NCBI RefSeq assembly: GCF_028890305.1
Contig: NZ_JARBXM010000001.1
Coordinates: forward strand, 1,220,501-1,284,500
Source of the DNA: Candidatus Methanosphaera massiliense
GTDB taxonomy: Archaea; Methanobacteriota; Methanobacteria; Methanobacteriales; Methanobacteriaceae
Direction: 5' to 3'
DNA: 64,000 nt
The notes beneath the pieces were generated by a model that was not told the origin of the DNA, did not search any database, and worked only from the letters and a program-made list of their open reading frames with translations. Position numbers and translations under genes: made by a program. This document shows positions 51,133 through 57,879 of this stretch, one piece after another (position 1 is the first letter of the stretch; every line of letters begins with the position of its first letter).

Positions 51133-51768
51133 TTAGAAATTAAGTTTAATTCCTAACATATTAGCAATGAAATGAAGGAGTATATTAATATCAGAGAAAA
51201 AACCATTATACTGTTTATTATGGATATTTGACATGAAATCTTCCATACGATCATCCAATTCTCGTCTATATGTAGTATTGTTATAATCATGCTCCGTGAA
51301 GTAATGTATTTGGACAGCATAATTTCCATCTTCTCTATGGAAGATATACGTCACGCCCATATTACTATTATTTGTCTCAGGTCCCCTGGAAGGATTCTTG
51401 AAATATTCTCTAGATACATTATTACCTCCTAAGTTAACAGTAGTACTATTCACCACTTCATAGTTTCCATGTTCTAATTCTCTTAATTTTCCCTCAGATA
51501 CACTTGTTATATGACCTTCTGGCCAGTCATCCCATAAATCCCATACAACATAACGATTAGTAATAGAGTTATTGGTTTTAGCTTTATCAGTCCAGTTTAC
51601 TTGTTCTGTAGTATTCCAGGCCTGTGGAACATTAACAGTACTATTTCCAAAAGTAAGTTGGTTCTCTGTATTCCAAGATAAAATAGTGTTAACAGCACTT
51701 AAATTAGTAATTATATAAATAAATATTATAACTATAATAAAGCTAATTAACATATCCTTCTTTCTCAT
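51133..51768 (-). CDS. exported or membrane-anchored hypothetical protein coupled to the GT2 gene
   Basis: The 211-aa protein has an N-terminal membrane anchor or signal (MLISFIIVIIFIYIITNLSA) and an extracellular domain with several NxT/NxS sites and a WDLWDDWPEG segment. A short hydrophobic C-terminal stretch (INILLHFIANMLGI) follows. Its start overlaps the end of the upstream GT2 fusion gene by 26 bases, a sign of coupled translation. The coupling suggests it helps the synthase, for example in polymer export or attachment. The domain itself is not recognised. Confidence 0.7.
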   Translation of the reverse strand: MRKKDMLISFIIVIIFIYIITNLSAVNTILSWNTENQLTFGNSTVNVPQAWNTTEQVNWTDKAKTNNSITNRYVVWDLWDDWPEGHITSVSEGKLRELEHGNYEVVNSTTVNLGGNNVSREYFKNPSRGPETNNSNMGVTYIFHREDGNYAVQIHYFTEHDYNNTTYRRELDDRMEDFMSNIHNKQYNGFFSDINILLHFIANMLGIKLNF

Positions 51769-53806
51769 TTTTTCCCTCTAATCTTTGATTTTTATTTTCT
51801 TCATTTTCTATGCCTTTATGGGTAGTTTTAGCCCATCTTCTCTCAACTCTTGTTATCATATCCCACATTGTTATAAAGAACAAGGGGATTAAGTGGAAAC
51901 AATAAATCCAATACTCTATTAAATCCTTGATAAATTTAAGATATTTCTTGTCATCACGTATAAGTGCAATACTTATTCCAGGGAAAAATCCAACCGCTGA
52001 AATAATACCAATTATTAAAGGTGCTTCCATACGGATAACCGTAGGTATATGTAACACAAACCATCCAATTATATTAATGATAAATATTAAAAAACCAACG
52101 AAAATGAATAAATTAAATGCATAATTACTTATATGGAAAATAATACCCACCTTTTTGTAGAAAGGTAATTTACATGTAAGAATTCTGGAGAAATAAACAA
52201 ATAATGTTTCGAAGTTACCCATAGCCCAGCGAACTCTTTGTTTCATAAAGTCATGCCAATTATCAACAGCTTCCTGGTAAACAGAAACCTCTGGACAATA
52301 TCTTATCTCTCCACCACTAATTAATAGTTTAACACTTAGATTTAAATCTTCAGTAACAGCAAATCCATCCCATTTACCTGCTTTAATTATTGCATCTTTT
52401 TTAACAAATTGACCATTTCCGCCAAGAAATCCATTAAATTTAAGATTATCTTTAGCTCTAAGTATGTTTCCAAAACCTGAAAATTCTACATCTTGCATGT
52501 TAGTTAGGAAATTATAATCTTTATTATACATTCTTACTCGACATTGAACACCCTGTACTTTAGGATTATTTAGATATGGGATCAATTTAGTTAAAAAATC
52601 TGGTTTTACCCATGTATCAGCATCGAAAACTCCTAGAATAGAACCATAAGATAATGCTAATGCATCATTGAGTACAAATCCCTTACCTTTACCTGATTTA
52701 GGTGGTTTACGAGTAATTATTCTTAAATGAGGATATTCCTTCTTAAGATCAGATAAAATTTCACCAGTTTTATCATCAGAACCATCATTTACCACGATAA
52801 GCTCATAATTAGGTTTACCATTATATGTATAATCCATATTCACAATACTTCTAACGGTATCTTCAATAGTATACTGTTCATTATGTGCTGGAATAATAAT
52901 TGATACAAATGGTGGTTTATCATAGGGTTTTGGTTCTTCCATTTTAAATAAACTTATCACTGCTAGAAATATCATCATTACAGAAGGAATAAAAATAATC
53001 CATTGCAGGAATGTTACATTCTTTGCTATAATACCTGATATTATAAGAATTATTGAAAGAACTAGAAGTAATCCAGAATATAATTTCTCAATACCTAATT
53101 CAATATTTTTCTTAGTCATCCTTGATTTAACATCAATTACTGTTTTCACGTTAGATGTGTGTTTTTTAAGAGCAACTTTAATAACAAATTTAATTTCATT
53201 AGTTGAATATTCATCAAAAATAAATCCATAATTTGTCTCTATAAAATTACTTTGAGTTAAATTATCCTCGATATTGAAGATATAAATTATAGGAATATCT
53301 AATTTGTTAATTAATTTACCTAACTCTTCACCATTTTTTTTACCATTTATATCTAAACTTAAAAAAACAATATCTGGCAAATTCTCCTCGATAAAGTAAA
53401 GAGCTTCTTCACTATTATCTGAAATACCTACAAGATCATAATGCTCATTTGTTAATGTTTTTTCAATGTTTCTTATAGCTTTTTTATTCTTAGAAACAAT
53501 ATATACCTTAGGAATTCTTTCATTTAGGCTCTTGATAGTCGGTTCATCATTAATATTTATAGTTAATTCTTTAGCATCATCAACATCTTTTAATGAAGAA
53601 ATTTCACTATTAGCAATTTCATAAATAAGATTATCATCAGATATATTTTTATCTAAATCTACTGTTTTATTACCTTCATCAAAAGATTTATCCTCAGTGA
53701 AATCAATACTATTATCAGAATTTTGTCTTTTATTAACTTCTTTCTGGTTTGAATCATCTTTATTTAAAAAACTATCTAATTTTAAATTTTCATTATAATC
53801 ATCCAA
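51743..53806 (-). CDS. pseudo-receiver/GT2 fusion, cellulose-synthase-like processive glycosyltransferase
   Basis: The 687-aa protein has an acidic N-terminus, a receiver-like domain (about residues 97-222), two membrane helices, and a GT2 domain (about 295-540). The GT2 part has IIPAHNEQYT, VVNDGSDD, the metal site FDADTW, the acceptor TEDLNLS and the processivity motif KQRVRW. Four or so further membrane helices follow. Such enzymes make and export polysaccharide chains. The receiver part is degenerate: the acidic pocket reads VSKN, the phospho-acceptor position is Ser150 (FLSLD) and the conserved Lys-Pro is missing. The start is a TTG with GAGGTG upstream. Two-component genes lie upstream on the same strand. 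Confidence 0.88.
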   Translation of the reverse strand: MDDYNENLKLDSFLNKDDSNQKEVNKRQNSDNSIDFTEDKSFDEGNKTVDLDKNISDDNLIYEIANSEISSLKDVDDAKELTININDEPTIKSLNERIPKVYIVSKNKKAIRNIEKTLTNEHYDLVGISDNSEEALYFIEENLPDIVFLSLDINGKKNGEELGKLINKLDIPIIYIFNIEDNLTQSNFIETNYGFIFDEYSTNEIKFVIKVALKKHTSNVKTVIDVKSRMTKKNIELGIEKLYSGLLLVLSIILIISGIIAKNVTFLQWIIFIPSVMMIFLAVISLFKMEEPKPYDKPPFVSIIIPAHNEQYTIEDTVRSIVNMDYTYNGKPNYELIVVNDGSDDKTGEILSDLKKEYPHLRIITRKPPKSGKGKGFVLNDALALSYGSILGVFDADTWVKPDFLTKLIPYLNNPKVQGVQCRVRMYNKDYNFLTNMQDVEFSGFGNILRAKDNLKFNGFLGGNGQFVKKDAIIKAGKWDGFAVTEDLNLSVKLLISGGEIRYCPEVSVYQEAVDNWHDFMKQRVRWAMGNFETLFVYFSRILTCKLPFYKKVGIIFHISNYAFNLFIFVGFLIFIINIIGWFVLHIPTVIRMEAPLIIGIISAVGFFPGISIALIRDDKKYLKFIKDLIEYWIYCFHLIPLFFITMWDMITRVERRWAKTTHKGIENEENKNQRLEGKNEKEGYVN

Positions 53807-54232: not shown

Positions 54233-54649
54233 TTATTTTTTTACAAATCCATGGGCAATGTTAAGCTTTTCAGCATCGATTTTCGCACGTTTAATTGCAA
54301 AGTCTATACTCATACCAATAGTTTTCTTATTAAATGGCTTTGAAATAAATCCATAAACAGATAAATCATTTATTATCTTATTAAATGTATCATCATCAGT
54401 GTATGCGGTTAGAAAAATAACCGGTAAATTAAGTTCTGAAAGTTTTTTAGCTGCTTCGATACCATTCATTTCACCTTTCAATTTAATATCCATAATTGTT
54501 AAATCAGGTGATGTCTCAGCTGCAATATTAATTGCATCTTGACCATTATCTGTGATATCTATAACGTTATAGCCTAATTCTTCAAGAGTAAATTTTAAAT
54601 CGAGTGCTGTAATTGATTCATCTTCTACAATTAATATAGTATTTTTCAT
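54233..54649 (-). CDS. single-domain response regulator
   Basis: The 138-aa protein is a stand-alone receiver: acidic pocket VEDE, phospho-acceptor Asp54 (TIMDIKLKGEMNG), Thr in FLTAY and Lys in SKPF are all present. There is no output domain, only a short helical C-terminal tail. I favour the start at the ATG at 54649 (MKNTILIVEDE); an ATG three codons earlier is possible. It could take phosphate from the nearby kinase and act by protein contact. Confidence 0.9.
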   Translation of the reverse strand: MKNTILIVEDESITALDLKFTLEELGYNVIDITDNGQDAINIAAETSPDLTIMDIKLKGEMNGIEAAKKLSELNLPVIFLTAYTDDDTFNKIINDLSVYGFISKPFNKKTIGMSIDFAIKRAKIDAEKLNIAHGFVKK

Positions 54650-55038
54650 AAAAATCATCTAAATATTTGACTTGAAAAAATTTTTATAAATTAATTATTT
54701 TAAGATTTAATATCATGATAATATTGTCTTATTTTTCCTTAAATCATGATTAAACTAGATATTTTAAATATTTTTTTAAAATCTAATATAAAAGAATATG
54801 AAAGTCCTTTTTATTATTACTTCGAGAATTATTTTATCTATTATAATTTAAATATTTATTTATTTTTAACTTTATAAAATATTATTTTAAAGCCAGCCAG
54901 TAAAGTTATTATGGAAAAATTAATTAACCTAATCTGTTAACTTGCTTTTTTTTATAAAAAAAATTAGAAATGGATTATTAAATAATTATATTAATTTAAC
55001 ATGACTCAATACTTCTATATATTAAAATTTTATAGGAT
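54650..55038. other. gene-free AT-rich stretch between response-regulator genes
   Basis: The gap between two same-strand receiver genes holds T-runs and one GC-richer patch (GCCAGCCAG near 54891). No gene is visible. The length suggests the two regulators are not in one tight operon. Confidence 0.4.
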
Positions 55039-55404
55039 TCAACTATCTAATATAGAATTGATTTTTTTAAATAAGTCCTCGAAAGTAAATGGTTTATCTA
55101 TAAATTGCACTTTTCCCGTTTCTATTAACTCATCTAATTCTTTTGTATGATCCTGACCAGAAATGAAAATAAATTTATAATCATCATCTTTATATTTATT
55201 GTAAATATCCATTCCATTGTAACCATGTTTCAGTTTTAAATCTATAATAATTATATCCGGTTTTTTATCTGGAATGTATTCTAATGCTTTATAATAATCA
55301 TCAGTTTGATAAACAGTAAATCCTTTATCTATTAATTTATAAGATAAATCTAAAGCTATTATAGCTTCATCTTCGATTACCATGATCTTTGTTATTTTAA
55401 CACA
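55039..55404 (-). CDS. single-domain response regulator next to sensor kinase
   Basis: The protein is a stand-alone receiver with VIEDE, phospho-acceptor Asp in IIIDLKLKHGYNG, Ser in FISGQ and Lys in DKPF. An ATG at 55383 would cut off the first beta strand (KITKIMVIEDE), so I extend it to GTG 55404 (121 aa), only eight bases after the kinase stop; the exact start is uncertain because its GGAG is very close. The tight spacing to the kinase marks them as cognate partners. Confidence 0.85.
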   Translation of the reverse strand, partial: CVKITKIMVIEDEAIIALDLSYKLIDKGFTVYQTDDYYKALEYIPDKKPDIIIIDLKLKHGYNGMDIYNKYKDDDYKFIFISGQDHTKELDELIETGKVQFIDKPFTFEDLFKKINSILDS

Positions 55405-55412
55405 CTCCTTTA

Positions 55413-56132
55413 TTAGTTTTTACGATAAGGAAATTTAATTTTTGAAATAAAACCTTTTTCATGTTTGTTGATAATAATTATTTTACCATCAATTTGTTTA
55501 ACTAGAGCTGTTATAAGTATTTGACCTAATGAGTCACCATTATCACTGTCGTTTAATCCAATACCGTTATCTTTATATGTAAACAGGATATTTTCGCCTT
55601 CTGTTTCTAAATGACAAAAGATTTCTTTTTCACCTTCAAAATCATCAGGAAAAGCATGTTTAATTGAATTTATACACTCTTCGTTAAGAATTAATAATAA
55701 TGGAATCATTGTCTGAACATCTAATGATAAATCTTCTTCAATAGTATACTTGAAATCGATTTCGAAACTAGAGTACATTTCTGAAAAGAGGTCTTTAAAT
55801 TGATTAAAGAAGCTAGATAAATCAACATATCCCAAATCATTTCCATGATAGATTTTTTCATGTATCAAGGCCATTGAAGAGATAAATAGTTTCATAGAAT
55901 CAATTATACTATGATCAGAATATCCAAATCTTTGTTGAAGATTTATTAAACTATTTAAAATTTGTAAGTTATTCTTAACTCTGTGATGAACTTCTTTAAG
56001 TAATAAATCCTTTTGTTTGGATGTTTCCATAAGACCTATTTTATCTTCAATTACTCCTTTATCATGTATAATAGTAACAAATAATCCTGGTTTATCATCT
56101 ATAGTAACACTTACTAAGTATGCTGTAAACAT
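55413..56132 (-). CDS. HisKA_2-type sensor histidine kinase (catalytic part)
   Basis: The 239-aa protein has the phospho-acceptor box LLLKEVHHRVKNNLQILNSL and an ATP-binding domain with NEECINSIKHAF (N box), DNGIGL (G1) and GDSLGQILI (G2). It would autophosphorylate on His and pass phosphate to the adjacent receiver. Its first 35 residues (MFTAYLVSVTIDDKPGLFVT) look like the end of a PAS domain whose beginning is in the overlapping upstream frame. The ATG at 56132 has its own AGGTGA nine bases upstream. Confidence 0.88.
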   Translation of the reverse strand: MFTAYLVSVTIDDKPGLFVTIIHDKGVIEDKIGLMETSKQKDLLLKEVHHRVKNNLQILNSLINLQQRFGYSDHSIIDSMKLFISSMALIHEKIYHGNDLGYVDLSSFFNQFKDLFSEMYSSFEIDFKYTIEEDLSLDVQTMIPLLLILNEECINSIKHAFPDDFEGEKEIFCHLETEGENILFTYKDNGIGLNDSDNGDSLGQILITALVKQIDGKIIIINKHEKGFISKIKFPYRKN

Positions 56133-56476
56133 ATTATCTTTTCACCTGTATCATAAAAAATATTATCTATAAAAGCAGATTTAAACTTAGTATCTTTTAA
56201 AGCATTATTTAATTGCTGAACACGTTCAATAGTATTTTCATAATCGATAATTCGACTAAAAAACGTATTTATAAATTTTTTCCATTCGAAATTATCTAAA
56301 TAGTTATTTCCAAATCCCAGAAGATTAAAAAAGTTATCTTCATATTTAATTTCATGATTATCCAATGTGAAACATAAGCAAGAAACAACTTCATCAACGT
56401 CTTTATTAATAAATAAATGTACATTGAAAAAAGGTTCAAAGTCTTTAATTAACTCTTTTTTTTCTTCATTATTCAT
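56114..56476 (-). CDS. PAS-like sensor fragment overlapping the histidine kinase gene
   Basis: The 120-aa frame reads like the first part of a PAS sensor domain (FTLDNHEIKYEDNFFNLLGF, then a helix rich in acidic and aromatic residues, then AFIDNIFYDTGEK). It stops 19 bases inside the start of the kinase frame. Joining the two frames near GAAAAGATAAT would give one continuous PAS-kinase. It is either a natural split gene with coupled translation or a frameshifted kinase. The start ATG has only a weak ribosome site. Confidence 0.65.
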   Translation of the reverse strand: MNNEEKKELIKDFEPFFNVHLFINKDVDEVVSCLCFTLDNHEIKYEDNFFNLLGFGNNYLDNFEWKKFINTFFSRIIDYENTIERVQQLNNALKDTKFKSAFIDNIFYDTGEKIICLQHT

Positions 56477-56901: not shown

Positions 56902-57879
56902 ATGTGTACAGCAGCAAATTATATATCAAAAGACCATTATTTCGGACGTAATTTTGATTATGAATTGTCCTATAATGAAAAAATTACTATAACTCCTAGA
57001 AATTATCCTTTGGAATTTAGAGTTGAAGATACAATAGATAATCATTATGCTTTTATTGGTGTTACTGCTGGTATAGAAACTTATCCATTATATTATGATG
57101 CAACAAATGAAAAAGGATTAAGTGTTGCCGGTTTAAACTTCAGTGAGTTTGCAGATTATAAAGAGGTAGATAATGAAAAAACTAACGTAGCATCTTTTGA
57201 ATTTATTCCATGGATATTATCACAATGTAGTAATGTTAAAGAAGCAAGAAAACTACTGGATAATCTAAACATAGTCAACATTCAATTTTCAGACGAACTT
57301 CCTAATTCATCACTGCACTGGATTATCTCTGATAGGAATGAATCCATCACTGTAGAAACAGTTAAAGAAGGATTAAAAGTTTATGATAATCCAGTAGGCG
57401 TTTTAACAAATAATCCTCCATTTGATAAACAACTATTTAACTTAAACAATTATAGATATTTATCTAGTAAAACACCAGACAACACATTTAGTACAGAATT
57501 AGATTTAATGCCATACAGTAGAGGAATGGGTGGATTAGGATTACCGGGGGATTTATCTTCAATGTCCAGGTTTGTAAAAGCAAGTTTTACTAAAATGAAT
57601 TCATTATCCAGTGAAGATGAACTTGAAAGTGTAAGTCAATTCTTCCACATTTTAGGATCAGTAGAACAACAAAGAGGCCTTGCATTTATCAGTGAACCAG
57701 ATAAATATGAAATTACAATATATTCTTCATGCGTAAATACTGATAAAGGAATTTATTATTATAAAACATATGAAAATAGTCAAATTAATGCAGTTAACAT
57801 GAATAATGAAGATTTAAACTCTGATACATTAATATCATATCCATTAATTAATAAACAAAATGTAAATTATCAAAATTAG
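56902..57879 (+). CDS. bile salt hydrolase (choloylglycine hydrolase family)
   Basis: The 325-aa protein is an Ntn hydrolase with Cys2 as the N-terminal nucleophile after Met removal (MCTAANY). Arg16 and Asp19 (GRNFDYE), the Asn in LTNNPPFD and Arg in GLPGDLSSMSRFV fill the conserved catalytic positions. The enzyme deconjugates glycine- or taurine-bile salts. There is no signal peptide, so it acts inside the cell. GAGGCAG precedes the ATG. Functional bile salt hydrolases are known in gut methanogens; the gene resembles those of Gram-positive gut bacteria and was probably acquired from them. Penicillin acylase activity is a less likely alternative. Confidence 0.93.
   Translation: MCTAANYISKDHYFGRNFDYELSYNEKITITPRNYPLEFRVEDTIDNHYAFIGVTAGIETYPLYYDATNEKGLSVAGLNFSEFADYKEVDNEKTNVASFEFIPWILSQCSNVKEARKLLDNLNIVNIQFSDELPNSSLHWIISDRNESITVETVKEGLKVYDNPVGVLTNNPPFDKQLFNLNNYRYLSSKTPDNTFSTELDLMPYSRGMGGLGLPGDLSSMSRFVKASFTKMNSLSSEDELESVSQFFHILGSVEQQRGLAFISEPDKYEITIYSSCVNTDKGIYYYKTYENSQINAVNMNNEDLNSDTLISYPLINKQNVNYQN

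Follow-up and report, generated by a model that had tools for sequence, protein, structure and literature searches.

The window, that is, the whole stretch of 64,000 nucleotides analysed, encodes a membrane glycosyltransferase of the GT2 type (P0001) which by its sequence resembles cellulose and PgaC synthases, and whose N-terminal receiver (REC) domain has kept none of the five phosphotransfer residues. Beside it is encoded an intact stand-alone receiver (P0002) that, judging from its sequence, looks like the separated first receiver (REC1) of a former REC1-REC2-GT2 chain. What is new here is this putative separated live REC1 beside a dead fused receiver, together with a locus that holds the only two-component parts detected in the genome. 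We favour, at somewhat better than even confidence, a separated tandem-receiver enzyme in which a kinase would signal to the stand-alone REC1, and this would dock on the dead receiver and switch the synthase. The features of the locus are the following:

51133..51768, minus strand: P0005, about 210 aa, overlapping the GT gene; conserved downstream partner
51743..53806, minus strand: P0001, fusion of a pseudo-receiver and GT2, 687 aa (open reading frame, Pfam, AlphaFold2 model)
52217..52915, minus strand: GT2 catalytic domain of P0001, residues 298-530 (NDGS, DAD, TED, QRVRW)
53024..53203, minus strand: last receiver helix running on into the first membrane helix (TM1), residues 202-261 of P0001 (AlphaFold2 model, conservation)
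53159..53518, minus strand: pseudo-receiver, putative former REC2, residues 97-216 of P0001 (sequence profiles, AlphaFold2 model, active-site residues)
53525..53806, minus strand: acidic N-terminal linker of P0001, residues 1-94, predicted disordered (pLDDT <50) and fast evolving
54233..54658, minus strand: P0002, stand-alone intact receiver with VEDE, D, T and KP present; putative separated REC1 (trees and tail motif)
55039..55383, minus strand: P0003, second stand-alone receiver, active-site residues present; its true start may sit some codons upstream of the annotated one
55413..56132, minus strand: C-terminal part of a HisKA_2 histidine kinase (nearest NCBIfam PhyK, below cut-off)
56114..56476, minus strand: N-terminal portion of that kinase, which this assembly puts in a different frame

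The synthase and its pseudo-receiver

The P0001 frame opens with a TTG start codon, preceded by a ribosome-binding-like stretch (GAGGTG). Pfam places GT2 families at residues 298-530, and the motifs NDGS, FDADTW, TEDLNLS and QRVRW are located at 340, 394, 485 and 523 respectively. We take DAD, TED and QxxRW to be the marks of processive GT2 enzymes of the cellulose, hyaluronan and chitin synthase type; P0001 has all three, together with flanking membrane helices in the AlphaFold2 model (mean pLDDT 77.6, 33 sequences), which bears out the complete GT2 in a membrane protein described by the first-pass annotation. Among the best 50 matches listed for each fold search, the GT part matched PcManGT, BcsA and hyaluronan synthases best. 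The best NCBIfam match was PgaC_IcaA (1e-40), but the cut-off for the PgaC/IcaA poly-GlcNAc synthase (TIGR03937) was missed, with 140 against 422.3 bits. No PilZ domain was matched in P0001 (Pfam, E up to 1), nor did Pfam give a GGDEF output in it. The predicted product is probably a surface sugar polymer.

Compared by sequence with PDB response regulators, the receiver part of P0001 matched 3cg0 at 5.2e-6, and 9.9e-21 was reached with the family profile, while Pfam Response_reg at residues 101-177 (E 1.7e-4) remained below its curated cut-off with 22.2 against 30.2 bits. In the AlphaFold2 model, strands and helices alternate at residues 100-216 as in a receiver; profile and model thus agree on the canonical PF00072 fold, and the canonical active site is absent, since the five phosphotransfer places read S105, K106, S150, F177 and D198 (0/5). 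S150 stands at the phospho-acceptor place, SKNK occupies 105-108, F177 the Thr/Ser place and D198 the Lys place. The N-terminal receiver-like domain, the replacement of the phospho-acceptor Asp by Ser150, the SKNK pocket and the loss of the Lys had all been noted at first pass and are confirmed, with F177 to be added, and the structure prediction proposed there for the N-terminus gave the alternation just described. Receiver structures were absent among the best 50 matches of each of two fold searches, both lists being filled by the GT domain, and the receiver fold therefore rests on the sequence profiles and the model, from which we judge the similarity of the N-terminus to receivers to exceed chance. 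The domain, similar to receivers and devoid of their active-site residues, falls under the definition of a pseudo-receiver given in a recent review, where at least one of the five active-site residues is missing (PMC12632262).

The dead receiver domain is under purifying selection. Between the window and L038, dN/dS was 0.14 for the pseudo-receiver, 0.07 for the GT part and 1.19 for the linker, and the comparison with L059 gave 0.32, 0.14 and 1.10 respectively. For the more distant L060, L061 and L064, with high synonymous divergence in some pairs, the values were 0.28, 0.65 and 0.25 for the pseudo-receiver and 0.86, 1.59 and 0.20 for the linker, whose whole range over the five relatives is 0.20 to 1.59. 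In the AlphaFold2 model a single long helix (202-261) links the last receiver helix with the first membrane helix. Over 21 pseudo-receivers this last helix is the best conserved one, with a mean top-residue frequency of 0.72 compared to 0.49 to 0.57 for the other helices and to 0.59 for the same helix when 10 intact fused receivers are compared; a slightly higher value is reached by strand 3 (0.74). In the subclade of the window, SKN at 105-107, in the first former active-site loop, is conserved, and there is little agreement among sequences in the rest of the former active-site loops.

Tandem and split relatives

Relatives of P0001 were found in 50 of the 138 genomes of its family (E up to 1e-20), two of which, G104 and G105, matched in the GT part alone; in its phylum, 57 of the 151 genomes have relatives (E up to 1e-30). 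Domains were mapped at 49 loci and at 7 more from two other families of the order. The search for the same fusion in relatives, advised at first pass, thereby yielded 50 fusion proteins compared by residue, a set that excludes L090 (GT in two frames), L050 (runs of N), L037 (same species as the window), L105, the partial or broken L056, L057, L040 and L058, and the matches in G062 and G064. Seventeen of them show the order REC1-REC2-GT2, and the other 33 carry a single fused receiver. Of the 17 tandem proteins, 15 have a REC2 with the full set of five residues; in the other two, L079 and L082, it has three of the five and Ser for Asp. Among the proteins with a single fused receiver, L094 has all five residues and no neighbour receiver. 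At all 32 split loci, the fused receiver keeps two of the five at most, with the Asp retained in 26 of the 32. Hence, a loss of the Asp throughout the homologues is contradicted by the intact tandem REC2, by L094 and by these 26 split proteins, and homologues with a normal phospho-acceptor Asp, named at first pass as grounds for refutation, thus count half against the earlier reading; the change to Ser is nevertheless common to all 6 members of the window subclade (window, L038, L059, L060, L061 and L064), so that the question raised at first pass about its conservation has a positive answer within the subclade only.

The surroundings of the gene differ between the two architectures. In every one of the 32 split loci the synthase is immediately preceded by an intact receiver gene of the same strand, -7 to 405 bases from the open frame's edge, compared to one adjacent receiver gene in 17 tandem loci (L087), and the receiver of L087 is without the REC1 tail. 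P0005 is found downstream in 31 of the 32 split loci, and a P0004-like kinase upstream within 7 kb in 29. At L070 only 360 bases lie between the contig end and the GT frame, so that an upstream receiver could be missed there. A second model, of the tandem protein L088, contains two predicted receiver-like stretches. Because the genomes are related, these counts of synteny, like those of co-occurrence below, are not independent of ancestry. P0005 itself has one N-terminal hydrophobic stretch followed by a presumably exported part; it matched no Pfam or NCBIfam family at cut-off, with one sub-threshold Pfam match, and no PDB relative was found at E up to 1. On the other side of the locus, the open reading frame at 56902-57879 is presumably a choloylglycine (bile salt) hydrolase.

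A few of the loci have peculiarities of their own. At L062 (4628-8824) a split-type synthase carries about 800 extra N-terminal residues, part of which looks repetitive and coiled-coil-like. The synthase homologues of L090 and L105 are interrupted by frame changes, and L063 (1-7231) has a kinase-kinase-receiver run beside an oppositely oriented tandem synthase, with no split synthase adjoining. The L038 contig is titled Bacillales; it shares 94-97% identity with the archaeal operon in the synthase, P0005 and P0002, and is probably mislabelled or a mixed metagenome bin.

To place the separation, a GT tree was used with the order's two other families as outgroup, leaving out L096-L098 (GT without REC). 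In this tree all 32 split proteins fall into one clade (99/92) that lies within tandem outgroups, the outgroup branches being tandem except for L094 and the broken L105, and the six proteins with Asp replaced by Ser form one clade (100/98) inside the split clade. On the GT tree the separation occurs once, and the nesting of the split clade among tandems favours one separation over repeated fusion. As far as sequences can tell, this points to a REC1-REC2-GT2 ancestor.

A tree of the receivers (74 of 100 rows, thinned by hand) joins the upstream receivers and the ingroup REC1 in one clade (96/91). Groupings were tested after the tree had been seen, with L063_2703, a receiver that does not adjoin a split synthase and is without the tail motif, counted among the 21 upstream-receiver rows. 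Grouping the pseudo-receivers with the upstream receivers (p 0.0096) or with REC1 (p 0.0097) was rejected, as was grouping the upstream receivers with REC2 (p 0.0074), while the pseudo-receivers with REC2 were not (p 0.32). REC1 of all kinds as one clade was not rejected either (p 0.365). In the best tree the two receivers of outlying family members, REC1 and REC2, fall together, and the receiver tree alone thus does not establish one shared tandem ancestor. With the tail columns removed (71 rows), upstream receivers and REC1 no longer form a clade (not rejected, p 0.11) and pseudo-receivers with REC1 are not rejected (p 0.079), while upstream receivers with REC2 still are (p 0.0009).

The tail in question is a motif, [AST]xG[FILV], after the last helix. 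It is present in 33 of 33 upstream receivers (32 plus L090) and in 7 of 7 ingroup REC1, and absent from the 7 ingroup REC2 and the 6 P0003-like receivers; among 33 fused single receivers, a set without L062, only L094 has it. Conversely, a helix-end motif, [RKQVE][KTE]H, occurs in 7 of 7 ingroup REC2 and 33 of 34 single fused receivers, in none of 40 upstream receivers and ingroup REC1, and in one of 4 REC1 of other family members. Traces of the linker that once joined the putative two receivers were also sought at the GT N-terminus and this line was abandoned, the shuffle p being <0.05 in 3 of 21 comparisons and none of these at the expected motif.

The first-pass annotation had suggested control of the synthase by a partner, such as the stand-alone receivers next door. 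From the sequences this is still the likeliest mechanism, except that the two neighbours are not alike: P0002 stands out, as it behaves like the REC1 that relatives carry within the fusion. P0003 as the main partner is less likely, as its kind is without the REC1 tail motif; moreover, P0003-like receivers are found in 5 of the 6 subclade loci (not L061) and at L062, and in none of the other 25 split loci.

Two-component parts in the genome and family

The genome of the window (1.79 Mb, 99.88% complete) has three receiver matches and one HisKA_2, all at the synthase locus. No receiver domain was found outside this locus in profile searches at E 0.01, and no GGDEF anywhere in the genome by the same kind of search; the only other HATPase_c match (E up to 0.1) is topoisomerase VI B. 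The locus thus appears to hold the only two-component signalling parts detected in the genome, by profile searches that can miss weak kinases, the locus kinase itself being below the HATPase_c cut-off. Within the genus, receivers occur in 5 of 20 genomes and HisKA_2 in 5 of 20, and the same five carry the synthase. Across the family, with the genome sets transcribed by hand, receivers occur in 48 of 48 synthase genomes (a number that excludes G104 and G105, which have the GT part only and no receiver match) compared to 6 of 90 others, and HisKA_2, counted by eye, in 46 of 48 compared to 8 of 90. The two synthase genomes lacking a HisKA_2 match, G012 and G013, are those of L079 and L082, with a tandem synthase and a damaged REC2 (REC1 of L082 has 4 of the five residues), which indicates that the enzyme can persist without such a kinase.

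Compared with L037 and L038, the kinase of the window (55413-56476) shows a one-base gap near 56124 that breaks it into two frames. Relatives have uninterrupted copies; in the same-species record L037 it is a single open frame of 358 aa. Over about 2.9 kb, the window differs from L037 at four places, and since two of these are single-base gaps, the frameshift may be an assembly error.

Proposed mechanism and known systems

In the mechanism that we propose, a REC1-REC2-GT2 ancestor would have been split, as suggested by sequences and trees, with REC1 becoming the intact upstream gene and REC2 staying fused and losing its phosphotransfer residues. The HisKA_2 kinase would phosphorylate the stand-alone REC1 (P0002), which would then dock on the pseudo-receiver, likeliest through its last helix, and this docking might repeat the contact that both receivers once had within one chain. 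The signal would travel along the continuous helix formed by the last receiver helix and TM1, and would switch the PgaC/BcsA-like polymer synthase in one direction or the other. P0003 may compete with P0002 or buffer phosphate, and P0005 may serve as an accessory protein on the envelope side.

The pseudo-receiver could instead be a structural cap or a dimerisation module and nothing else, with the kinase and the stand-alone receivers acting elsewhere and merely co-transcribed. The loss of all five residues would suit this, purifying selection alone would be expected of a structural role, and the 426 bases that separate the P0002 frame from the GT start in the window would make for loose co-translation. 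We nevertheless consider it unlikely, given that an intact receiver adjoins the synthase at every split locus, that no receiver domain was detected in the genome beyond the locus at E 0.01 and that the two receivers resemble REC1 and REC2 of one former chain. The constant company of an intact receiver also speaks against a domain that senses a nucleotide, a metabolite or redox directly, or that is modified on Ser150, independently of any kinase. Such sensing has a precedent in the ShkA pseudo-receiver, which is reported to bind c-di-GMP, and a new pocket is conceivable around the conserved SKN 105-107 and the Ser150 shared by the whole subclade; yet the remaining former active-site loops show little consensus there and the genome has no GGDEF match, which makes c-di-GMP an improbable ligand, and we hold this reading to be quite improbable.

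An equally improbable course would be that the subclade is losing control altogether, REC2 decaying, the kinase already broken in this genome and the synthase turning constitutive. The kinase frameshift relative to two relatives would fit, as would G012 and G013 and the 15 of 20 genus genomes without a match to synthase, receiver or HisKA_2. On the other hand, the kinase frame of L037 is uninterrupted, the single-base gaps fit an assembly error as well, and dN/dS suggests that both the pseudo-receiver and P0002 are constrained.

A separated tandem-receiver enzyme remains the reading that we prefer. Two-component signalling might even have shrunk, throughout the genus and possibly also in nearby genera that have few receivers, to one pathway with no gene-regulating output, in which one kinase, free receivers and one dead receiver switch a surface-polymer synthase post-translationally, the tandem having been cut and its live half acting in trans; we advance this broader claim tentatively, at a little under even confidence. 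The separated enzyme and its locus would in any case give a rare complete view of one genome's entire two-component output, and c-di-GMP-free control of a cellulose-synthase-like enzyme in an archaeon.

P0001 is like BcsA and PgaC/IcaA in its GT2 motifs and predicted membrane layout. BcsA is under c-di-GMP control; unlike BcsA, P0001 has no PilZ match and its genome no GGDEF match, and a receiver stands in place of c-di-GMP control. Fusions of one or two receivers with BcsA, including MTH_548, have been reported in Methanobacterium, Methanobrevibacter and Methanothermobacter (Galperin and others 2018, PMC5847659), and P0001 shares the architecture of these REC-BcsA proteins, which carry their receiver(s) on a PF13641 GT2 and come from the same archaeal family, Methanobacteriaceae. 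The REC-GT2 fusion itself is hence not novel, and the first-pass statement that no archaeal system of this kind had been described has to be withdrawn. The accessible passages of that paper give one or two REC and make no mention of dead receivers, a separated REC1 or a locus holding the whole inventory; in the literature covered, with most subscription journals outside it, this paper alone among the matches listed apparently concerns the fusion.

The 2025 review (PMC12632262) regards it as a mystery how pseudo-receivers of bacteria are turned on and off. With live and dead receivers apparently separated and still neighbours, the candidate partner is named here and the question could be addressed with two small proteins. 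The same review describes CmrRST of Clostridioides difficile, an operon with a kinase, a normal response regulator and a pseudo-receiver protein. The P0001 locus is like it in combining kinase, receiver and pseudo-receiver and differs in that the pseudo-receiver sits on an enzyme, CmrT being an OmpR-family regulator. The review also describes PleD of Caulobacter, a chain of receiver, pseudo-receiver and diguanylate cyclase in which the intact receiver signals through the pseudo-receiver to the enzyme (PMC12632262). In the P0001 locus the intact receiver forms a protein of its own and a membrane glycosyltransferase is the output, the GGDEF in the chain being a feature of PleD and not of P0001. 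By analogy, the closest parallel to the proposed mechanism would thus be a PleD with its receiver acting in trans and a glycan synthase as its output.
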